From Bolinopsis microptera (taxonomy: Eukaryota; Ctenophora; Tentaculata; Lobata; Bolinopsidae), in NCBI RefSeq assembly GCF_026151205.1, contig NC_087079.1:14012445-14076444 (forward strand): a stretch of DNA of 64,000 nucleotides. The letters run 5' to 3'. Positions 4,399-60,275 of this stretch are shown piece after piece (the first letter of the stretch is position 1; each line of letters begins with the position of its first letter). The position numbers and the translations under genes were made by a program. The notes under the pieces were generated by a model. The model was not told where the DNA came from. It made no database searches and was given only the letters and a program-made list of their open reading frames with translations.

Positions 4399-7300
4399 AT
4401 GAACATGTCTCTCAAAATCATTGTGGTCACTGCTTTGATGCTTTTAGCAGTCAGTGCAGTTCTTGGAACAGGTAGGAAAATGACCGAATAATGCATGTTC
4501 AATGCAATGTTGATTTTAACTTTTATAATCGTATATTTCACTCAAGTTTAATATTTTGCTTTATACAGATCTCAGATCTGCGAATTTCCAATGTTTTTTT
4601 CGTTAGTTAGGTACTTAACTCAATAATTAGATGGTGTGATCTGTCACCTGTCATAGTTTTCTAGGAAATAAATAAGTCTAGTAACAAACAAATTAACCCG
4701 CTCCAATACTGACATCTAAAATAAAAACAGTCGCCTGCAGACCGACTTACTCCGGCCATTAAGGTTTTAACCATTTAAATACCGAACCAATAACGTTTCT
4801 CAATGACTTTTTGTGAAACTTGATTTCAAGACAGCTGTTTGTTGACCAACAAACTATAGGGCCCGTGACCGAACTTTTGAGTGGGTTCCATACTCATGGT
4901 CCCCACCGGTGCCCGCGGGACAACCACGCCCATATTTGCTCAATTTTTAGCTTAATTTTGCCAAATCACCTTAACATGGTAGATGGGAGACCGAAGGGAT
5001 GATCTCCACATTTCTTTCAAGGTCCCGGAAATATCTTTCTTGTATTCAATAAGACATTTTGCCTTATTGTTAAACTTCTTTATAAACATGAAGATAATCA
5101 ACCCAGCAACACGCACAATACAAAAACTTTCAGATCAATACAATTGATTGCAGTATTGCAGTTATAAGGTAAACTGCCACCTGCATTTGAATAGAAGGTC
5201 AAGGGTTCGAATCCCAGTGTCAAATAGCTATAAAGATATGTGGATCTACCTTACGTCATTACAATGTGTGGCAGTATCGAGATAGCCCGACCACTGGTCC
5301 GCGGACCACTGTCCGCGGACCACTGTCTGCGGACCACTGTCCGCGGACACCTGTCTACCAGATCATATTACTGTATAATAACAGTATCCCCTGAATCAAG
5401 CAACAGGTGTTTGTGAATAGTTGATTGGTTACCAGATCATATGAATGGTATGTATGGTATCTTGGATGCAATTAGTTACGACTAGCATAATTAATTGTAG
5501 CGTAGTAAATTACTGGATCAAACTATTGATTACGATTCAAATGTGGTCTCTCGGATATAATTAGTTACGAATAATATTGATTGCTCAATGAAATAAATGA
5601 TTACGATTAAAATGTGGTATATAAGTCGTTCGTTTTTGGTGAAGTATTATCAGTTGCCATCATCAACAACAACAACTATTCCAATTCCTGACATGGTACT
5701 CTTCTGTCTAATGGACGAAATCAATGGACCCACCGCCTCCCTAGAGAATGCTCGAGACTTCCTATTCCTTGACACCACCGCTGATTGGAATTCGCGTGCG
5801 ATGATGTGAACCCTGCTGGATTCAGGGGATTACACAGGATTACACAGGATTACACAGGATTAAAATTAAATTATAGATCCATTATCATGGACCGTCATAA
5901 TTGTACAGAGATTAATGAAAACATTCATCTTTCCTTGAAGTCAGGGCCAGGGTTATCCTTAAATCTTAATAATGACTAATTCGCGAGGTTCTCACCAAGT
6001 TGATAGTAAAATTGTTTAAGTTTCGTGCATTTGAATTACGTTGACGCATATCTTCGGTGAAGCTATTTCGCTCTTCGGAGCAGCGAAGGAAATAAGTGCA
6101 CACACAATTGACAGCATAGGAGCGCCTTTCTTGAAATTGAATATACTGTGGGGTGTTTGGTTGAATATTAAGTGAACGGTGGCAGTGAATATGGAGGCTC
6201 TGGTGATTTTGAGGAATTACAGTTGAGTTAGGAGACAAAATTTCCATAAGATGGACTTTGAGATTTGTTTCATTGATATTGCTTGGGTCGGTGATATCAG
6301 TGCTTATTTCAATGAGTGGCATTTGAGAAAGATTTTTGACTAATTTCGACCTCTGTTTTGAATACAAGTCACATATGTAGAGAACATGTGACTCGTCTTC
6401 GATGGTCTCGACACCCATACTTGATTGACACCAGGCACATAGTCTTTGCTCACGGGGTGTGTTGGAGTATCTGCCTTTTTCAATATGGAGATCATGGGCG
6501 CTGATTCTAAGTTTTGTGGTGCTATAACGACGAGAGAAGCCTTTGCATAAGTGTAAGTAGGGCTCTCGTTTAAAGGTGTGTTTGATTGAGTGATAGAATG
6601 AGAGTTTAGAAGAAGTAGATTTCTGATATTCCCAACATTTTTTGAATTGATTGGTTAGAGCTTCGATGATGTTAGGAATTCTATACTTTTTGCTGCATAG
6701 TGGTTTGATACATTGACTAAAATTTGACTGATTTTTGAGGGAGTCTTTTAATAATTTGTGATCACTTACAGGGTTGGGCTCGGCTTTGTTGGCTGCATTT
6801 GTATTGAGAATTCGGTGCGCGGTTACGTGATCTAGTTTGTAAATTTCATCTAGTTCAAGGAGGGGTTTTATGTATCGATACCAAGGTAAGTTTAGTGATT
6901 TTTGTTCTTTTACGGCTGCAGTTACAAACGAATTCGACTTTGATTTTGTATTTAGCCTTTTGAAGTAATTTAATGTTAAGCGAATTGATTGATAAATCAG
7001 AGGAATTCTCCCTGTCTCTCCCCATACACCTACATTTGATGCTTTACGATGGACTCCCAATGCCCATTTTAGGAATGAAATATGCACTCTTTCTTGCAGA
7101 GAGGCGCTGATTTTTTTAAGTAAGTTAGTAGCGGTTGCTTCTGTCGAGTTAATCGTTTTGCAAAGAGATTTGTTGATCGTACTAGTGGGTGTCCATATTG
7201 GAGCACCATATAATAAAATGGGCTTGATGAGAGAGTCGAACAGTGTAAGGAGTGCTTTAAAAGATAACTTTGATCGCATGACAACCCTTTTCAGGCCAAA

Positions 7301-10300
7301 AAATGCACGCATTGCTTTGGTTTTAAGGTTTTGTTGAGCGATCTGCACTTGACCCGATTGATGAAGTTCAAATCCAAGGTAACAATAACTGTCGACAATT
7401 TCAAGATTAGATCCGTTGAGTGTAAATTTGATGTTTTGTACGTCCTGTTTTAACGCTTTCTTACCAAAGATGACTGCTTGAGTTTTGAGTTCATTGATTT
7501 CAATGCCCCACTCCTTACAAAAATTACCGAGAATATTAAGTTGCATTTGAGTGGTTTCCTGGTCGAGTGAAAGGAGTATAAGGTCATCCGCCCACAGCAG
7601 GTGGCTAACAGTAATATTTGAAAGTACGGGGCAATTTGGAAAGTCTAGGAGGCAGGACATATCACTGAGAAAAACTTTAAAAAGGTCAGGTGAGAGTGGG
7701 TGTCCTTGTTCTGTACCTTTACGTATCTGAAAGCGTTTACTGAGATGACCAGATAATTTTATGTAAGCGTACGAGTTTGAGTACATATTTTTGAGGACAT
7801 TGTAAAAGTTTCCAGTTATGCCATTTTTTGCGAGTTTGAGGAAAAGGGCTTGACGGCAGACTGAGTCGAATGCTTTTTTAAAATCAACAAATACTGCATA
7901 TACAGGTTTCCCCAAAAGTTTATATTTTGATGCTATAGTTTTCATGGTTAGTATGTGATCGTATGTTTGAGCTTTCTTTGTGAAGCCTAATTGGTTAGGT
8001 GGATCAGGGCAGTTTTCAGAGCGGAAGTGAATGAGTCGTTCTAAGAGAATAGTTGAGAAGAGTTTTCCTATGACACTGCTGACAGCAACTGCACGGTAGT
8101 TGTCAGGATCCGATTTATTTCCCTTTTTATGAAGTGGAGATATGATGCTGACGTTCCAGGGATAAATTCCTTGTGAGAAGCAGGCGTTAAAGAGGTTCAA
8201 CATAATTAATTTATGATTGGTATCCAGAGATTTTATAATTTCATTATTAATCATGTCGAGCGAGGAAGCTTTACCATTTTTGAGGGATTTTATACTAGAG
8301 TCAAGTTCTGTTGTTGTGATTAAGCTGTTGAGTGACTCAGGATGAGTTGCACCTTGATTTATCAAGTCAGCTTGATCAATCATAGAAACTTTTTTATTTT
8401 CATTTATTGTTTTGTGGTTATCAGAATATAGGTTACCAAAAAAAGACTCGAATCTATTCATATCATGACTGTCAAAATTTAAAGTTTCCTTTTTCTGATT
8501 TTTTAGTTTTTTGAAAGATTGCCAGTTGAGAATTTTCCCCCCCTCTATGTCCTCATTCATACGTGCGAAGAATTCGTTTTTGGCAGAGTTCTTCAAACGC
8601 TTATAGCTACCCTTGACAAGATAATAGTTTTCACGTATAAGGTTGTTTGACGGGAATTTTGAGGTTGCATCTGTAGCTTTACGAAATTCTCTTTTACCTA
8701 ATCTCGTTTTCCAGTTAAACCAAGGTTTGTTTGAGGTGTGAGATTTTTTGGGTGGTTTGGTTTGTTTGAAACACTTCGAGGCCATGTCGCGAAGATGTTC
8801 TGAAAGTCGTTTGTTAATGTCTTTAAGTTCAGTTTCATAATTACGGACATTGTCAGCTAAATTATTTTGATTGGTGAGTAAGTCGATGTTCGATTGGAGT
8901 TCTTGGATTAAGGTCAATGATAGATTTTCTGACTGAGCTTCGAAAAAGTCGTCTTTGTTCTCTTCGTTGATAATGAATCTGGTTGGCGCTGTCTTATATG
9001 TGTCCTGTAATGGGGCACATTGGCTGATCGCGAATCTATTGCATTTTAATTCAGTACTGAGGGGCCTATGATCAGAATGTTCGGTGAATGTCAAGATTTT
9101 GAAGTAGTTGATTCTGATCTTTGTGGAGTTGGTCACTGCAATGTAATCAATAACGCTGCACCCATTTTTTTGGATACTTGTGAAGTTTCCTACAAGATCT
9201 CCTAGGGTACGGCCATTCAGAATAGTGAGTTGGTTATGTTTGACTAGGTTAAGAAAGTGTGTACCATAAGTATTTGTGATAGAGTCTAGTGAGTTTCGGG
9301 GGAGAAAGTTGTCAGGCTCATAATCGTCTGGTAAGGGAACAACGTTGGTTGAGTCTTCTCTTATCATACCCGTTTTTTGTCCTATACGAGAGTTAAAGTC
9401 CCCACACAGTATGACTTCGCCCTCCTCCCGAAGTTCGTTTACAACGTCTTCAATGTTTTTTAAAGCATCTTTGCCATTGTCAGTCGGGTTTGAGGCTGAT
9501 GAATTAAATGGTCTAATGTAAACGTTAACTATGAATGTATCTTCTGATAGGTTAAAGAAATCCTTGTCTAGTCGACAAACAAGGTAGTCTGAACACTCTG
9601 TATTCTTGATAAACTCAATCCCTTCAATAAGCTCATTTTTTATGAGGATACCGACACCTCCTGATTTACCGTCTTTCCTTATGTTGCAGATTGATCGATA
9701 TCCTACCAAGTGAACCTCTCTCCTAATTTCCTGAAGACAGGCTATGTCATGATCTTTGATAACATTTTGAAATGATTTTATTTCAAATTTGCTCCCATCT
9801 ACTGATGAAGGCGATTGGATATTCCAAGAAAGTATTTTTATGCTATTTTTATTAATTGAAACCTGTGTATTTTTTTGTGTGTTTTTAGTCATGGTATAAT
9901 GTGTATAAATGAGAATATATATTATGTGAGTGTAATCACGTTCGACTAAGAGGCGAAGGTTCCAATCCACCTGTAGAACGGATTTTCTTTGGCTTGTTGA
10001 GAACCAATCTTGTCATTTCATGGATACTGTGACGGAAGTTTCCTAGAATGACCTCTTTGCCTCTTGTTGAAAGGTGGACTCCATCGTTCGTGAGATACTC
10101 TCCTATCAGATGATTATCATGCATGAAGTTGGCGTTGGGGTTATAATATAAAGACCGCTCTTTGAAGGGTTTTCGTTCGTTTTTATTAGTTACGGTCACA
10201 AATTCCCAAATTGCATCCCTTATCTCACCAATCCTTGCGTTTGCTTCGTTGTCAGATGTCATTAGTGGCATTGAGAAGAATAACTTTGTACCTATCAGGG

Positions 10301-13300
10301 ATTCCTCTACGAATAGTGAAAATTGAAATATGTTGTCGAGACTTACTCTTAGGTCGAACTTTTGGTTGGCATCATTGACTCCTAGGTGAACATAGATGAA
10401 ATCAGGTTGTGTTCTTAATAATTCGTCTTTGACTTGTTGCTCTTTAAGTCCACCTGTGTCCCGCTTGTTGATTAGAGTCAATTCATGGTTCTTTCCGAGA
10501 GCATTCTTGGTGTCCATACCCTGGACATGTCTCAGGATTGAGTCTGAGATGAGGGTCGTCTTGAACACTTTTGAGGGCGTGGTGGATCCTGAAGTTTGAC
10601 GAGTGAAGTCGGAGTTCTGAGTCCTGGTGAAATTGGAGTTCTGAGTTCTGGTAAAGTTGGAGTTCTGAGCTTGAGTGGAGTTATGAGCTCGAGAAACCGA
10701 GGAAGTCATGCTGAATCCATTGTTTCTCCGGGACAGCAGGTTGTTTTCTCTACTATGAGTTCTTTGATCTCGAAAGGGTGAGGGAGGTTGGTAGGGTGGA
10801 GTGGGTGATAAATCATCGTCATTAGGGGAATAGTCAGGTGGGACATCGGTACTCGCGCCATTCCATCCTTCTGACTGAGTGACTATTTTGTGAATTTCTT
10901 TTATCAACTGTCCGTCTTCCCGAAAGAATGCACTGTTGTAGTAGTTTTTGAGGTCAAATTTTAGTTTTTGAACACTTTTGTCTACTTCGTCCGTTTTCGT
11001 TTCTGCTATGGAAATCTCCGTGAAAACCTCGTCTACTCTGTTTTTGATCCGTGTGGTAGCTGACAAATTTTTCTCCCAGAGGTCTTTGACCTTTTGCATT
11101 TCCTTCTTGCCCACCTCGAGGAGTTTTTCGATTTGCTGGATGCTAGTATCGGAGCATTTAAGGCTGTTAACCTCAGATGTAAGTTTCTCCAACTCCTGTT
11201 TAACGTCAATAACTTGGTTCTCGATAACCGTCTGGACCCATGCGAGAGAGGGGAGTTTCGAGTCTAAGTCCTTATTCAGAGAGGTCCTTGCTGGTTCTTC
11301 GGGTCTAGACATCACATTCATCATTCTTGCTCTCCTTTCTGTAACAGATCCTTCTGTGGAGCAACCATTCCTCGTTAGTTCCTCGTTGAGGATGGGTTCA
11401 GGAAGATGAGCAACACAAGCAATAAGTGTCTCGGGAGGGACCGTGTGGTTCTCCACAAGAATAACTGTCCTTTCGGTGTCTTCGGGAGATGTAGGGCCAA
11501 CGTTGAGATCATCTTTGTTTACATCCAGATGAAGTGAAGCATGGGTCTCAGAGCTAGAGGGCGACCTGATGATTGGATTACTATCCAACAAACTAGATCC
11601 GCCTTGCTCAGTTAAGTAAGAGGTCTGCGCTTCGATCAGTTTGATATCAGTAGCGCTGGTTGAGGTGATAACAATGTCAGGGATATCCGTCGTCTTGTTA
11701 AAGGTCATTTGTAGTCCATTATCTTTTTCTAAGTTAGAGTCAGGTCTAAAGGGATCATCTGCACTAAATCCTTGAGGTTGCTGATGTGTAATAATGTCAG
11801 GTATCTCCATCGTCTTGTTAAAGGTCAATTGTAGTCCATTATCTATTTCTAAGTTAGTAAAGTCAGGTCTAAAGGGATCATCTGCACTAAATCCACCATC
11901 TGTGGAAGATTGAGAGGGAGCCGTTTCTTGCAGAGATGAAACTGAGGTCTGGTCACTTACAAGATTTTCCTCGATCGCAGTTGAAGGGGATCCAATGAAA
12001 AAAAGAACAAGTTGTTCGTTTTGAATATCACTCTTTCCTTTAGGTATGGAATGCATGTACTCAAGAGTGGAATTTCCTGAGAGAACACACAGAGATCCTG
12101 AGTGCATGGGCACCAAATGGGTTACTTTAGTTCCCCGTTTCAGTTTGAGTGATCTTGGGGCCCCAAGAGAAAGAATGGCAACTGTGGGTTTCGCCCCATG
12201 TTTTCCAGCTAGTGTTTCGTAGGGGATATGATCGTTATAACTTGGGAGTCGCCTGATTACTATGTTGGTGATAGTTGTATTAAGTTCAAATATTGAGCTC
12301 GCTGACTTCTCGATTTTCTTGGTGAGGTAGCTGATCTGATTTCTAAGGTTACTCTCCGGGGTCGAGTCATCTGGATGACCCTCAGACTCTACGCAATCAT
12401 CTTCGATCTCCAGATCTATCTCTTGACGGCTACTCGTTTGGTTAGGGTAATTTGATATATCAATATTCAGCTCACTAAGCAGCAGTTCAGCGGCGTCGAA
12501 GTCAATAAAATCCTCGATGTAGTGTAAAGTACATTTCTTTTTCCTTTGATCCAGGATGTATACCCCGTTCTCTGTGATGGCCTTTGGTTTATTTGACTGT
12601 TTCTTTTTCCTCATTTCTTGACTTGAACTGCACTCACTGACACTCCTCTCACTGACACTCCTCTCACCTGCACTCCTCTCATTTGCACTACCAGATGCAC
12701 TGCTCTGCTCGGAGTAGCTCCTCATTCTGCGCGAAATCTTCTCTCCGGGATTCCAGTACGGACTTAAGGTTTTTGGTAAGCGAGGTGGTTGACTGCTTGA
12801 AAGAGTTTCCTTGGGGTGTGCTTTCTTAGGAGTGCTGTTTGAGTTCTGTGATCTGGAGTCATCGGTATGATCTTCTTCTCGGACCATAAAAACTTGAAGT
12901 TGCTGATTGAGGGATGGAGTAGGTAGATATCTTTTTTTCACCGTAACAAGCGTTGAACTGTAGGTATCCAAAGGTTCCAAATGAAATTTAGAGAATTCAA
13001 ATGAGCCGACGATAGAGCAAACGGCCAACATAAAAACAAATGTCAAAAAAACCTGATACCTTGTCAAAGTGTTTTTATACTTCAAAATTTGCTCCAAATT
13101 TTGCTCCAAATTTTGCTCCCAAATTTTATTATGGCACAGGATGTGTGAGGTTGGTGAGATGAAAGAATATTCGAGATTGGGCGTTTCTATGCTATCATAG
13201 AGATTACGCGGCACTTCGGCTCTGCCGCATTGGGTCGGACGGGTCTCGGAAAAAGCAAGCGCAGGTACACGAGCGCGACGAACGTGGCCACAAGCGAGGA

Positions 13301-16300
13301 GGTACCTAGTAACCCTGGCACTGACATCTACCACTAAATATTCGGAGCGATCAATAAAATGGTAATCGAAAAAATCTTCAACAAAATCTCGCCAAGTCCA
13401 CTCATCAAATAAAATAGGGCGTTGGGGCACTATTACATTTCCTATCAGTATAATGTTAACATATTTAAAGACACTCAGGAAATCAAAACAATCAACAAAA
13501 ACATGGCATGAGCCCAAGTCTAAAAATAGGTCGGGGCGTGGGGCCACTGCAAGTATCACATTCGAAATATCACAAGTACATTCAAACAATACGTCATTAT
13601 TCCACATAGTGTGTAGCATCGGAATATAATATGAGAAAGTTCCAAGACACCGGAAGTACGTCTGCGTGTAAGTAAAATGCAAATGTTCATTTAAACAGAT
13701 GAGCGAAGAGTTGCAGTTACACGGGTGGTTGAGTGTGTAGGTACACTTAAAACTGATGTTAAACATAATCGGGTCCCTGATCGTTGTACGATATAAGTGC
13801 GAGTAGAAGCACAAACCCGGTTTTAAGCCAAAAGAATCCAAATCCAGTCCCAATTCCAGTTCCGATATGTCCAGAGAATTAGAGATAGGGTTAGGCGGAG
13901 GGGCAGGTCCAGTTCCAGCCACAGTACTGGCCACGCCAGCGACTAAAAGTATCAACCACGTCACGGTGACAGTGGTAAATCGAAGAGCGTTAAAATGTGT
14001 AACGAATGCAAATGTGCAAATATATATGTTGTGGGGATGATGTGAACCCTGCTTGATTCAGGGGATACTGTTATTATACAGTAATATGATCTGGTAGACA
14101 GTGGTCCGCGGACAGTGGTCCGCAGACAGTGGTCCGCAGACAGTGGTCCGCGGACCAGTGGTCGGGCTATCTCGATACTGCCCAATGTGTTGTATTTGTG
14201 GTAGATACTTCCAAGTGATACACTGTTTATGATAAACAGTCTCAATAAATATCGTAAGGTAAACTGTTCTCTGAGAATCTGGTTTTAAAATGGTACGGGG
14301 AAAACTGTTGCCCGAGAATTTTAGGTAATAGGTTCCAAATATTGTAAGGTAAACTGTTCTCGTTTCAAAATGTAATGTTACTGTAAGCTCTGCTTTTAGT
14401 TTTAGTTTTGGCAAAAACTGAATCATAATAATAATAATCTATAAATATCACGAACTACTAAGAAGTCTGTAAATAAAAACTGCTCAGAAGTCTATAAATA
14501 AAAACTGCTCAGAAGTCTATAAATAAAAACTACTCAGAAGTCTATAAATAAAAACTGCTCTGAAGTCTATTAATATCAACTACACAGAAGTCAGAAGTGT
14601 TTTAATACCAATTACTTTCACCATGAGTGGTCGAATGTCACGCAGGATATGCAGTGTTTACATTTAAATCGGCTGTATCTTCGGTTCAGATGAATATATT
14701 TTGATGCGATAAAAACGTACTACCACAGAATATTATTATTTTCCTCCCTGTGACCACGGGCTTCCCTAAGATTGTGGCTTACATCTGCAGAGTTAACATT
14801 ACCTTGTGTCTTCGTCTGGAGTTAACATTAGCGTGTGTCTTACATCTAGAGTTAACATTAGCTTGTGTACACTATATTATTCCATATAAGGCCTGATCAT
14901 TATTATTATTATCAAACTTTACACAAATCCGAAGTAGTAATATAAAAACATCCTAGGGATCTGATAAGTCTACGTGAAGAACTCTGAAAACAAACTTAAA
15001 TATTTAACCCAACAAAATTGAAAATTAATGAATCAAAAACTAAACAAATTTCTCCAATGGTTTCTGTTCGAGGCTATATGTCGAAGTTCTGTCAAATCTG
15101 TCAAATTACATAAATTTATATTTCTTTTATTTAAATCACTCAAAATGGTTTTGAAAATACTGATCTGATGTCTACCAATTCTCCCTTTCATATTCTCCAT
15201 ACTCTCAACAGTAAAACTCAATGCTAGTTGGGGTGGAGAGTTACAATCACTTCTAAGGATATGACCGAGCATTTTCCAGCGAGACTTAGCAACCCTCTCT
15301 GTTAATGGAGTCACCCCACAACGAGCATAAAGGTCTCGGTTACTGATGATTCGGGGATAAGTGGAGTTCATTATCCGCCTCAAATGTTTGCGCTGACACA
15401 CATCCACTTTCTGAAGGATTTTCTCTGGAGCGGCCCAGCTATTGCAGTTGTACAGCAGTACTGGGGTAACAAGGGCCTCGTATAATTTCACTTTGGTGTC
15501 CAGTGAAATTCGGGACTTTTCCAGCCAAACTTTGTTGTACTTTTCGAAAGCAACATTAGCTAGGATACAGCGGTGAAGTATGTCAGATTTGCTGCAAAGC
15601 CTGGATCCCAGTGACACACTCTTTCTCCATGGCTCTCTACCTCTTAATGGCTCTCCTTTCTTGTCGACATCTGTTTTGTCTGCTATATAGAAACGGACAA
15701 ATTCAGTCTTGTCTTCGTTAACAAGTAGGTCCCATTCAGCTAAAATTTCTCTGCAAATAGGCAGCATCTCATGCAGATCAAGTAACTTGATCTCTGGTGA
15801 CGTCGCAAAATATCTTAGTCGGGATACGACACGTTATAACGAATGTGATCACGTTCCCGAAGATAAACGTGATAGGACCGACTGTCACGTGGCCTTATTT
15901 ATCCCTTATATGGCACGAGTAGCTGCAATTTATGAGCTCTTAATTGGGCTGCAATCCTTGACAGGCCTATAATTACCCAGTTTTAAATGAACGATGTCTC
16001 ATTCTACAGAATCATTTACAATTGTAATAGATTAAAAAGAACTTATTACAATTCGTAAGCAGTGAATGAATGGGAAAAGCGAGCGACCGTTTTCATTCTC
16101 GTCTTCATTTTGCAGACGGTCAATCGAATTAATATCATTTCCTTTTGTTTGGGAAAGAGAGACACCGGCAGCGGTCCACTCTACCCATGATTACGGGTTT
16201 TAGTCAAATAAGTAAGTACTCATTTTATAATAATCCATAATTCTTAATGCTATAAACATCAACTACTCCCCCAGAACCGGAATGTGAGGCAGGTTATTAC

Positions 16301-36730: not shown

Positions 36731-36953
36731 TACGTGCGGTATCGACGAGCGGTATCGACGTGCGGTATCGACGTGCGGTATCGACGTGCGGTATCGACGT
36801 GCGGTATCGACGTGCGGTATCGACGTGCGGTATCGACGTGCGGTATCGACGTGCGGTATCGACGTGCGGTATCGACGTGCGGTATCGATAGTGAGGTATC
36901 GACGTGCGGTATCGACGTGCGGTATCGATAGTGAGGTATCGACGTGCGGTATC
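36731..36953. repeat. 13-bp satellite (tatcgacgtgcgg)n
   Basis: About 17 tandem copies, with two variant units gatagtgagg. The 132-codon open frame across it arises because three 13-mers make 13 codons without a stop; I do not regard it as a gene. Confidence 0.92.
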
Positions 36954-56880: not shown

Positions 56881-58272
56881 CTAGAAACATTCATAGTCCA
56901 TGGTGGCAGGTATCAAGTTAAACGAAGTTACACTGACTGGCAATGTATACGATTGCCGTCTCCCTCTCTCACCCCTGACCACTATCAGGGTGCTCCTGAG
57001 GATTGAGAATCTAATCCTGGTGCGCATGTAACACATAATAGCCGCATAGTCTTCTCCTCTCTTCTGGGATAGTTTTTCAGCGAGTCTCTTGTGGTATCTT
57101 GTGGCTTGTGGACCCCATCCGCCATTTGTTGAGTATATAAGTGGAGTAAAGGTGCCTTTTTCCACCTGGATGATTCTGTTGTTGTACTTTTTCATTTTCC
57201 TCATTTCATGAGTTTTATAGATCTGTTCCATATCTTTTTTGTCATATGTGGGTGAGTTGGGGTGGGTAACACAGACATCAAAGAATGTCCGTTCAAATGT
57301 GCTCCAGAGACCTCGTGAGGATACATCAGGTGCAGCTCTATCAGCATTGGTACCAACAATTTCTTCATTATCAAGGGGTATCAATGCTGGCTCAGTCACT
57401 ACATCTCTGCATACTTCACGCTGCAGCTCTGCATTTAGATCGCGGATGTTGTTGTGTCTCATAGAAACATAGCCACCTTTCTTGCATATAAGTGTGTGAT
57501 TCACATTATTTCTATCTCCACAAGCACAGTGAAATGGGGTGTTAGGGATCTCCCAACCATAACGCAAGTACAGAGCATCACGGAACTCAATCTTGTTCAG
57601 GGAGTAGCCAAATCTCTTCAATGGAAGTGCAGTAAGCCAATATCCTGAACCTTTCTCTTTGATGAACTGGAGGGATCTCTTTAGGTTGGGATCTCTTACA
57701 CTGTCCTCTATTGATTTGCTAACCGTAAATAAGTGTTTCTCCTTGATTGCCTTGAGACTTTTTATAGTGTCATTTTGAATTGACATGTTGTAATGTTCAA
57801 GGGTGTTTTGCTGGTTGATAATCAGGTCTGTAAGGTCTTTTGTGATGGTGACTGAGGCTGTGAATTCTCTATTGCAGTTTTCAACTGGGTTGGAGATACC
57901 TAGGCCACCATGTCTGACTGGCAATGCAAATATGGAGCGGTCCAAGTCTGATACGTTCTTACCCAAGATTGCTGGAATAAAATCTGTTCTGATGCAATCC
58001 TCCAATGGTTGAAACAAGTGACTTATACCCGGGATGGTCCTCTGAATGAACGTCCACCGGTGACAAATTCCCTTAGTATATGCAGTCAAAGCAGCTTGGG
58101 GCTCCTCTTGAAATAGCAATTGATGACAACAGCTTGATGTCCTGACACCATTTATGGACTTTATCTGAGACATATTTGTTCTTAAAAGCTTCGCTGCCAA
58201 TTGCTGCACCCAAATGGCGTTCTCCTTCAGACTCGATTTTAATACCAGTGCCTGAGAATACTTTCTGCGCAA
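56881..58272 (-). pseudogene. PHD-LINE C-terminal zinc knuckle and restriction-like endonuclease
   Basis: From about 58100 down the frame reads thumb residues (HGGLGISNPVENCNREFTAS), a CxCG...HxLxC knuckle (CACGDRNNVNHTLICKKGGY) and a PD-(D/E)XK-like nuclease (APDVSSRGLW, RTFFDVCV, KMKKYNNRIIQVEKGTFTPL). The first 55 residues of this frame are out-of-frame shadow. The stop is at 56881. Confidence 0.82.
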
Positions 58273-59152
58273 GATCTAGGTCCTCGCTATTCTTCACAAT
58301 CAGGACGGTCTTACTGGCTTTTGGGTAATATCCATACTTTGGTCCTTGCTCCAACAGCGTATCCCACCATATCTTAATACCTTCAATCTTTCCACCAGCA
58401 CTACTGTCATCTGCATACCAAGACTGTTTGCAAACACTGGGCTTGGAGGCTGTGGCAAGGTCATCTACTAGAGGCTTGATCCCTAACGCATAGAATGCCA
58501 TTGCTGCTACATCTCCCTGAGTTGAACCTTCCTCAGACTTAAGTTGGTAGTGGTCCTCGGTAGTATTAATGATCAGGTCTGCTGGCTTTTGGTAGTGGTT
58601 CTTTAGATACTGATAGAGCGGAGGACAGATCTCATGAACATTGTGAAGGGCTGCTTCTCTATTAAGACGATTGAACGCATTATCAGCGTCAACCTGTAGT
58701 ATTGCTTCAGTGTCACTGTCTTCCCAGATCTGTCTCATTGCATGAATGGAAGCCTCTATTCCTGATTTGAGCCCTGCACATGTCTGCAGTGGGCCAGCAG
58801 CATATTGTATATCAGTTTTGAAAGACATTATAACTGCTTTTCCAATGATTCTGCGCAATATCTCGCCGATTCCAATTGGTCTTACACCAGGTTTCCTGTT
58901 CTTATCCTGGCCTTTATCAAGAGGGATTAATCTGCATGCAGTGAACTCTTTCAGACAGCTATGATGGATATCTTCTCTACAAAGGTGCCTTGCAACAATT
59001 GCTATAGACTCAGCAAGTGTCACTGATGCTTTGCCAAATGATTTGCTGCAAATGATATGCTTCCACAAATCTGAGTCCGTTAGTGTTGGGCCGCCTGATC
59101 CATCCAAAATATAAACAAGCCCTCTTGACAGTCTCTGCGTCAATCCTCTCAA
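58073..59152 (-). pseudogene. PHD-LINE reverse transcriptase domain
   Basis: It contains RT motif 1 (KPGVRPIGIGEILRRIIGKA), motif A (LQVDADNAFNRLNR), motif B (EEGSTQGDVAAMAFYALG) and motif C (SWYADDSSAGG), with all three catalytic Asp present. The Met at 59152 is an artefact of the frameshift; the natural N-terminus is in the preceding frame. Confidence 0.85.
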
Positions 59153-60275
59153 ATATCACTTCCTGAGGTGGAGGAGTACTGTGAGGGTGCAGAACAACTG
59201 GATCTGCTTTAACAGCTGGAGGGTGTTTCTCCCCAAGGACCTGTTTAATGTTTGCTGTTAGGCTGTGAACTCCTAAGGTGTCATTGGAACTGTCAACATA
59301 TTTGGTGGCTTGTTTAACTTTCCCAAGGAGCATTAGTCGGCAGAAACTCTTCTTCCTGGATTCCTCGCTGATTTTTTGTTGCTGCACCAAGGCTTTCTGA
59401 ATACTCCTGCACTCCATCATTAGATCGTCAAGTTCTCCACTTTTCCATTTAACCAAACGCTTGGTGAGATATGTTACATGGTCTCTTGCTTTTGACTTGC
59501 TTGACGGTTTTTGCAACATGATTGGCAAAAAGATATGAACCAGTGCGAACGATAGCCTTTCCCACTTGGTAGCATCTGCAAATAAGAGGATGAGCCGAGT
59601 CAGTTCTTTTATAAAGTCGCTACCTGATTTACCTCTGGGAACTAGGAAAAGATTCTTTCTCCATGTCACCATCTCTTGATAAACAGCTTGGACTTTCTCA
59701 GCTATCAACTCTTCACCAACCATTGAGCCCCAATTAATTTTGTTTGCTTTCACTGCTTGACAAGTATCACAAAACCATATCTCTTCATTATCCATCTCAG
59801 CGTACTCGGTTTCACTGATAAACAAACAAGGTGCATGGAGCCATTCTTCACAGCCATCACAACCCAATGCCTTATCCGAATCCCCCACAACACTCCTACA
59901 CACGGGACAGTTATAACAGATATCATTTTCCTCGTCAGGAGCATCAATGATCTGCTGGTTCTCTACATTATCCCTACATTTCTGACAAACCCACCGTTCA
60001 CTGTCCACTGGTGCAGACTTGCCAAGACATTTAGGATGGAAAAATGTCTTACAGGAATCACATTGAATGCTACAAGGTTCTGATATAAGATCTTTGGGAC
60101 AGATTCCACATAACAGAGAAACAACAGGTGTAACATAAGCAATACCTTCAGAAGACAGGTGTTGAGATGTCTCCGGATCACAGGTGTCTGGTAGCTGTAC
60201 ACTCTCTGTTTCTGCTGTCTTGTCTTCACCGCTGTTTGTTATCATCGTAGCGGACTTTCCATTGTCATACCTCAA
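59010..60275 (-). pseudogene. PHD-LINE N-terminal region: two PHD fingers
   Basis: PHD finger 1 at about residues 54-103 (CGICPKDLISEPCSIQCDSC ... WVCQKC) and finger 2 at about 118-175 (CPVCRSVVGDSDKALGCDGC ... WFCDTC) show the C4HC3 zinc pattern. A long helical linker follows (RKNLFLVPRGKSGSDFIKEL, QKPSSKSKARDHVTYLTKRL). PHD fingers read histone H3 tails, so a role in choosing chromatin targets is plausible. The frame is lost near 59115. Confidence 0.8.

Follow-up and report, generated by a model that had tools for sequence, protein, structure and literature searches.

A ctenophore LINE whose ORF1 joins a fast-evolving N-terminal module and a predicted membrane segment to an AlkB-like fold and an SGNH esterase

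The DNA analyzed here, a stretch of 64,000 nucleotides from the ctenophore Bolinopsis microptera (contig NC_087079.1, positions 14,012,445 to 14,076,444; called the window below), contains a young, full-length, esterase-bearing long interspersed nuclear element (LINE) on its minus strand. Its second open reading frame (ORF2) encodes an endonuclease (PF03372, E 1.9e-10) and a reverse transcriptase (PF00078, E 3.4e-28), and ORF1 is the upstream neighbor of ORF2. A sequence-only reading had described the ORF1 protein (ORF1p) as a type I membrane protein with an N-terminal signal peptide, a Cys-rich ectodomain bearing glycosylation sequons, and a single transmembrane (TM) span. Our preferred reading, held with moderate confidence, is that ORF1p is an integral membrane protein of another build: an N-terminal module that begins at Met67 and has no cleavable signal peptide, a TM segment, a pseudo-AlkB domain, a coiled coil, and an esterase, with assembly of the ribonucleoprotein (RNP) on the membrane. 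The features of the element are as follows (KD, Kyte-Doolittle hydropathy; dN/dS, ratio of nonsynonymous to synonymous substitution rates).

9936–13964, minus strand: ORF1, an open frame of 1342 codons with GTG as first codon; GTG at codon 1 in 10/10 copies
13767–13964, minus strand: residues 1–66, including the claimed signal peptide 1–17; ahead of the first AUG and perhaps untranslated; all three frames free of ATG from the 5′ end onward
13764–13766, minus strand: codon 67, first AUG in the window copy and likely start; first ATG of any frame in 7/10 copies
13056–13766, minus strand: residues 67–303, Cys-containing, fast-evolving N-terminal module; dN/dS 0.44 (0.24–0.98), 12 Cys in 237 residues
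12999–13055, minus strand: residues 304–322, single TM-like segment; mean KD 2.11; equivalent in 9/9 sequences reaching it and in a second family, family B
11982–12599, minus strand: residues 456–661, AlkB-like fold (predicted model compared with the PDB) with degenerate catalytic motifs
10875–11264, minus strand: residues 901–1030, probable coiled coil; dN/dS 0.09; weak matches to coiled-coil-like and kinesin-like chains
10005–10574, minus strand: residues 1131–1320, SGNH esterase with DS/GxND/DxxH motifs; PF13472 in 9/11 rows at E ≤ 0.1; dN/dS 0.09
5966–9970, minus strand: ORF2, endonuclease and reverse transcriptase (Pfam PF03372, PF00078)
5831–14036, minus strand: full-length LINE, window copy; 5′ end common to copies with differing flanks, 3′ (ATCCTGTGTA)n tail, 30-bp direct repeat around it
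14037–14066, no strand: target-site duplication, 5′ copy; 30 bp, 1 mismatch relative to 5801–5830
5801–5830, no strand: target-site duplication, 3′ copy; pairs with 14037–14066

The (ATCCTGTGTA)n tail closes the 3′ end of the LINE, which is inserted within an inverted-repeat element bounded by 5270–5402 and 14050–14182. These inverted ends are 133 nucleotides (nt) long, 98% identical, and contain a 14-bp tandem unit. Judged by domain content (endonuclease and reverse transcriptase in ORF2, SGNH esterase in ORF1), the LINE appears to be an esterase-bearing member of the CR1/L2-like group. A search of its own genome (264,652,675 bases in 232 contigs) with the window ORF1 gave at least 42 matches at E ≤ 0.001; five of them, the window copy included, were free of stops over residues 1–1342 or 1–1341, at 94–100% identity. 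Among all loci fetched, codon 1 is contained in 10 distinct copies (L001–L005, L007, L008, L020, L028, and the broken L018). Nine of the ten have the same 5′ end, ~54–57 nt upstream of codon 1, in differing flanks; the tenth is the broken copy, and in the window copy some 17 further bases precede the common end. Truncation at the 5′ end was therefore ruled out as the reason for the absent ATG. The frame of L007 is interrupted by a stop at codon 42, and the copies L020 and L028 end near residue 146–149. The broken copy (L015/L018/L019/L030/L031/L033) lies ~33 kb from a contig end and is perhaps an assembly error. The upstream flank of L004 is the same as the 1300–1540 flank of L031, ~1.9 Mb away on contig C8; one of this pair is intact and the other, the one near the contig end, is full of stops, as after a duplication or an assembly error.

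The protein collection contained 12 relatives of ORF1 (10 from the sequence search and 2 from the profile search), 3 of which are labelled Mnemiopsis leidyi; with the window they make 13 ORF1 sequences. The same genome holds family B (L037–L046 and L047), which the window protein matches at 30–34% identity in the AlkB-like part and its surroundings only. The stop-to-stop frame of family B, 1252 codons long, has the same order of a Cys-bearing N-part, TM segment, AlkB-like domain, coiled-coil-like region, and SGNH esterase; hydropathy and motif checks cover part of this order, and the rest is a reading of the sequence. The Mnemiopsis protein P0011 as genome query gave 40 matches, none from a closer family: they fall in family B, the window family, and a small number of weaker places. 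A scan of viral contigs gave 76 pattern matches, none of them a relative.

The open frame claimed for ORF1 was borne out. Codons 1–359 contain no stop in frame 0, compared with 19 and 27 in the other two frames, and were open in 0/5000 Markov shuffles. GTG had been taken as residue 1 because the ORF lister admits it as a bacterial start. The signal peptide, by contrast, could not be kept at the protein N terminus: codon 1 is GTG, no AUG lies before or within residues 1–17 in any of the 10 copies, and the 9 unbroken copies have no in-frame AUG before codon 67. In 7 of the 10 copies codon 67 is the first ATG of any frame, the exceptions being the broken L018, L007 with an internal deletion, and L003. 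Across the 272 nt of leader in the window copy no frame contains an ATG, a result matched by 0.44% of Markov shuffles; the leader also has no stop in frame 0, as in 3.7% of the shuffles. Met67 has A at −3. Because codon 67 is the first AUG in any frame of the window copy, an AUG-initiated protein would lack residues 1–66, and Met67 is the likely start of ORF1; non-AUG initiation upstream of it is possible. Scanning makes initiation downstream of codon 340 unlikely, given that the window copy has 16 AUGs upstream of codon 360 and that 12 of these are out of frame. A Met stands at or beside residue 360 (12885–12887) in 11/11 sequences reaching it, as VYM/VFM or VYTM, and family B has Met-Met near the equivalent position. 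Met360 might serve as a second start, giving a shorter soluble isoform.

The leader itself was also compared. For residues 1–66, dN/dS pooled over 6 copies was 0.95 with an uninformative bootstrap range (0.20–4.91). Shuffling was used to compare peptides and N-parts in 15 pairs. The 5′-most in-frame peptide of L004 scored 52 against the N terminus of P0011 (500 shuffles, mean 25.5, maximum 48), and that of the window copy scored a weaker 47 (mean 26.6, maximum 46); both alignments run through a hydrophobic stretch ending in AGVA. Beyond these, only the pairs P0008–P0011 (z 14) and P0008–window N-part (z 7) exceeded the shuffles. Leader peptides compared with P0006, P0008, and family B, and P0011 compared with P0006 and family B, were within the shuffle range. 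The resemblance to P0011 may reflect conservation of coding sequence or of a promoter, because shuffling destroys hydrophobic patches and the comparison was made without Mnemiopsis DNA. The GTG of codon 1 sits inside TGACGTGG, and the same word occurs on the opposite strand of the family B leader. It is found in the L004 leader up to codon 3 and, in reverse orientation, at the 5′ end of L039 (family B). We take TGACGTGG to resemble CRE/UPRE-type sites of the endoplasmic reticulum (ER) stress response, and ATTTGCAT in the window-family leader is presumably akin to an octamer site. Family B has its first in-frame ATG at codon 18, in a strong context (GCGGCCATG) and behind a stretch resembling a signal peptide.

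Residues 1–303 are present in one open frame in 6 genomic copies. Pooled over these, with L006 and fragments left out as not spanning the N-part, residues 67–303 gave the dN/dS of 0.44 listed above, compared with 0.31 for residues 360 onward. Within the latter, values were 0.29 for residues 360–455, 0.18 for the AlkB-like part, 0.99 for the linker 662–900, and 0.09 both for residues 901–1030 and for the esterase. Residues 304–324 and 325–359 had no synonymous differences in the window family and hence no ratio. The N-part of family B (18–308), compared with the older relative L047, showed 20–22 synonymous and 17–18 nonsynonymous differences and a dN/dS of 0.23–0.25, similar to the 0.21–0.24 of the body; all 5 of these comparisons share L047 and are hence not independent. 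For the L038–L047 pair (21 synonymous, 17 nonsynonymous) the Fisher P was 1.8e-5, and the TM segment of family B gave 0.38–0.57 on 4–5 changes. L041, which differs in length, entered the dN/dS values and not the pairwise counts. The dN/dS values exclude L037 and L043–L046 because of late-starting or broken frames. Purifying selection on the segment was thus found for residues 67–303 and for the family B N-part, and residues 1–66 were uninformative. Because the copies carry the segment and residues 67–303 are under purifying selection, the N-terminal module and the membrane segment stand. The N-parts evolve faster than the body of ORF1: identity was 17–36% in the N-part versus 44–60% in the AlkB part for four distant pairs, and 78–88% versus 86–94% for three close pairs, seven pairs being compared in all.

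The description of this module as a Cys-rich, sequon-bearing ectodomain held for its cysteines only. Residues 1–303 contain 13 Cys, compared with 7 in the 982 residues after residue 360 (Fisher P 8e-5), and in the window family this asymmetry speaks for a lumenal position of the N-part; in family B (10/288 in the N-part, 18/852 in the body) it is not significant (P 0.19). Sequons in residues 1–303 are at chance level (2, shuffle mean 2.28). They were not enriched in the window family or family B and exceeded chance in P0009 and P0011 (P 0.033 and 0.025; 8 sets tried). Sequence and profile searches gave no envelope or receptor relative among the matches listed, and residues 1–545 of P0011 as an N-part query retrieved 3 proteins, all ORF1s of the same group. 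By shuffle comparison, no sequence similarity was seen between the N-parts of family B and the window family. A single-sequence AlphaFold2 model of residues 1–360 was uninformative (mean predicted local distance difference test score, pLDDT, 32). The word RRAR, a minimal RxxR, occurs at residues 229–232 (window 13269–13280); a second RRAR at 877–880 means that the word is not special. Relatives likewise have arginine-rich stretches ahead of the TM segment.

The single TM span of the sequence-only reading was recovered as one strongly hydrophobic segment at residues 304–322, with weaker ones at residues 1–19 and 156–180 (mean KD 1.6–1.7). A TM-like segment with mean KD 2.1–2.8 is present in all nine of the 13 ORF1 sequences that reach the site (P0003, P0007, P0013, and P0014 begin downstream of it and are outside the count); it has no charged residue in 4/9 and one in 5/9. 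In family B the mean KD is 3.06. In 9/9 rows of the window-family clade, which are related and not independent, the 15 residues preceding the segment carry more positive charge than those following it. This pattern favors a cytosolic N-terminal side; the flank charges of family B, read from the sequence, are the opposite.

The remaining ~1000 residues had been assigned to expected LINE parts. The esterase is present and a coiled coil is likely; an AlkB-like domain was found as well. When the predicted model of the AlkB-like part was compared with the PDB, it showed the double-stranded beta-helix fold of AlkB. Sequence searches of the window ORF1 alone against the PDB gave no match at E ≤ 1, and the profile search gave 4 matches, none below E 0.8. 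With HxD placed by eye, DHIPYE, DHVPYE, or DYIPYE replaces it in 11/11 rows. The second His of AlkB is kept in the window family, as aligned to ALKBH3, and is Arg in family B; no 2-oxoglutarate-binding Arg was seen at the expected place, again located by eye. Because HxD reads HxP and this Arg seems absent, the domain is probably enzymatically inactive. A coiled coil at residues 901–1030 is probable from weak matches to coiled-coil-like families. The esterase matched PF13472 at E 0.003 in the window row, which is below Pfam's own cut-off, and at 1.1e-9 in the best relative, with 9/11 rows at E ≤ 0.1. All three motifs (DS, GxND, DxxH) are present in 9/11 rows, the remaining two rows ending earlier, and in family B. 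No RRM or CCHC was found among the Pfam matches.

In the preferred reading, translation from Met67 would yield an N-terminal module of ~240 residues, followed by the TM helix, a basic linker, the AlkB-like domain, the coiled coil, and the SGNH esterase. Serving as a signal-anchor, the TM helix would take ORF1p to the ER or nuclear envelope, and the coiled coil would multimerize the protein. The pseudo-AlkB fold is a candidate nucleic-acid binder for holding the LINE RNA, because Pfam showed no other. The esterase would work on membrane lipids, and the RNP would assemble on the membrane. Several points weigh against this reading. Membrane insertion is likely, on a prediction from hydropathy alone. 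The third-position excess in residues 67–303 is borderline in the window family by itself (P 0.058). In the full-length copy L003 codon 67 is TTG, and the next ATG, at +274, is out of frame; one out-of-frame ATG also lies ahead of the in-frame ATG of family B. The high Cys content of the N-part and the likeness of the 5′-most peptide to P0011 suggest possible translation of residues 1–66. The flank charge of the window family is +2 before the TM segment and −2 after it. A signal-anchor that follows an N-domain of 237 residues usually leaves this domain in the cytosol and the C-terminal ~1000 residues in the lumen, and RNA binding makes no sense in the ER lumen. The orientation is ambiguous: a long N-domain without a signal peptide tends to be cytosolic, which is at odds with the C-terminal domains binding RNA in the cytosol.

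Two orientations can be weighed against each other. The type I topology would begin at a non-AUG codon near codon 1 (the GTG, or ACG at codon 2) and have a signal peptide at 1–17, lumenal residues 18–303, and the AlkB-like, coiled-coil, and esterase parts in the cytosol. It would thus place the RNA-facing domains where RNA is, and it agrees with the frame that stays open as far as the element's 5′ end in the window copy, with the GTG retained in 10/10 copies, with the hydrophobic stretch of P0011 and its shared AGVA end, and with the Cys enrichment of the window family. We nevertheless regard it as unlikely: AUGs are missing from the leader, residues 1–66 show no informative selection, sequons are at chance in both families, the window-clade flank charge favors a cytosolic N-side, the other leader comparisons (P0006, P0008, family B) stay within the shuffle range, and in family B too the signal-peptide-like residues lie ahead of the first in-frame ATG with its strong context. 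The conservation of codon 1 could equally be that of promoter DNA, the GTG lying inside TGACGTGG. A bolder form is very unlikely. Here a non-AUG signal peptide would put the fast-evolving Cys-rich domain on the lumenal or outer face, with the pseudo-AlkB-bound RNP and the lipid esterase facing inward and RNPs packed into vesicles; if true, such an ORF1p of the secretory pathway would be the LINE counterpart of an enveloped particle. The reverse, type II topology starts at Met67 with a cytosolic N-part, a TM signal-anchor, and the esterase in the ER lumen, perhaps acting on glycoconjugates or lumenal lipids. The excess of positive charge before the TM segment in the window clade and the lack of a signal peptide in the protein read from AUG point this way, but the coiled coil, pseudo-AlkB, and K/R-rich linker look cytosolic, the body is poor in Cys, and the flanks of family B are opposite, so that we give this topology little credence.

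Two further explanations do without a membrane-spanning ORF1p. The hydrophobic segment might not be inserted at all, and the N-part would then be a cytosolic or nuclear domain, at most peripherally bound to membranes. Insertion is a prediction, the model of residues 1–360 has a pLDDT of 32, five of the nine segments have one charged residue, and the N-parts hold other hydrophobic stretches. This explanation is highly improbable in view of a KD of 2.1–3.1 over 19 residues at a conserved place, found although the segment and its C-terminal flank are only 17–36% identical in the four distant pairs. Alternatively, residues 1–359 would be an open 5′ leader and ORF1 would start at Met360, a Met kept in all sequences reaching it, downstream of which conservation rises sharply; the gene calls P0007 and P0013 begin between the TM segment and this Met. 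Purifying selection on residues 67–303 and on the family B N-part, the absence of any open frame in the shuffles, and the 12 out-of-frame AUGs upstream led us to reject this start as the principal one, and it is almost certainly wrong.

Two other features lie elsewhere in the window. At 58073–60275 on the minus strand there is a second LINE remnant with overlapping frames, PHD fingers (PF00628, E 1.9e-13), and a weak reverse transcriptase match (PF00078, E 2.2e-7), perhaps from a different, PHD-type LINE. A 13-bp tandem array with 16.9 copies of ACGTGCGGTATCG occupies 36732–36953.

Among the literature matches listed (titles and abstract openings, with Repbase and subscription journals outside the search), none describes a TM segment or an AlkB domain in the ORF1 of a LINE. 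Compared with ALKBH3/ALKBH2-type dioxygenases, the window domain has 17% identity, HxP in place of HxD (YxP in P0010–P0012), and seemingly no 2-oxoglutarate Arg. Orchid Ty3/Gypsy elements carry AlkB in an additional ORF, and demethylase activity was shown for it (PMC9289625). They share with the window LINE an AlkB domain in a retroelement; they are long terminal repeat (LTR) elements with an active AlkB in an extra ORF, whereas the domain here is part of a LINE ORF1 and has a degenerate active site. In bdelloid LTR elements, ORF3s are Env-like or GDSL proteins, and one lineage has a paramyxovirus-like fusion glycoprotein (PMC5408684). TM regions and SGNH esterases in retroelement proteins are common to these and the window ORF1; the bdelloid proteins are separate ORF3s, and no sign of a fusion glycoprotein was found among the matches listed for the window LINE.

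The closest known systems are esterase-bearing ORF1s. A survey of the ORF1s of 448 elements of the Jockey superfamily lists the esterase among modular ORF1 domains, as in the window LINE, and its main text does not contain "transmembrane," "signal peptide," or "AlkB" (PMC4120745). The window LINE also resembles the CR1/L2/RTEX esterase type in its ORF1 esterase, its ORF2 with endonuclease and reverse transcriptase, and the absence of RRM and CCHC among the Pfam matches. In zebrafish ZfL2-1, an ORF1p of this type in which the SGNH esterase follows a coiled coil, the esterase binds lipids and membrane targeting of ORF1p was proposed (Schneider et al. 2013, PMC3905857); "transmembrane" and "signal peptide" do not occur in the main text of that paper. 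The membrane idea is hard to test as long as the protein has no anchor. In the zebrafish study, lipid binding was proposed to be driven by charge. The window ORF1 has its own TM-like segment next to an N-terminal module under selection, together with an AlkB-like domain; this layout is seen in two families of the genome and in relatives, Mnemiopsis among them. The pseudo-dioxygenase would give ORF1ps without an RRM a candidate module for RNA binding, and membrane-based RNP assembly would be directly testable by removing one helix.

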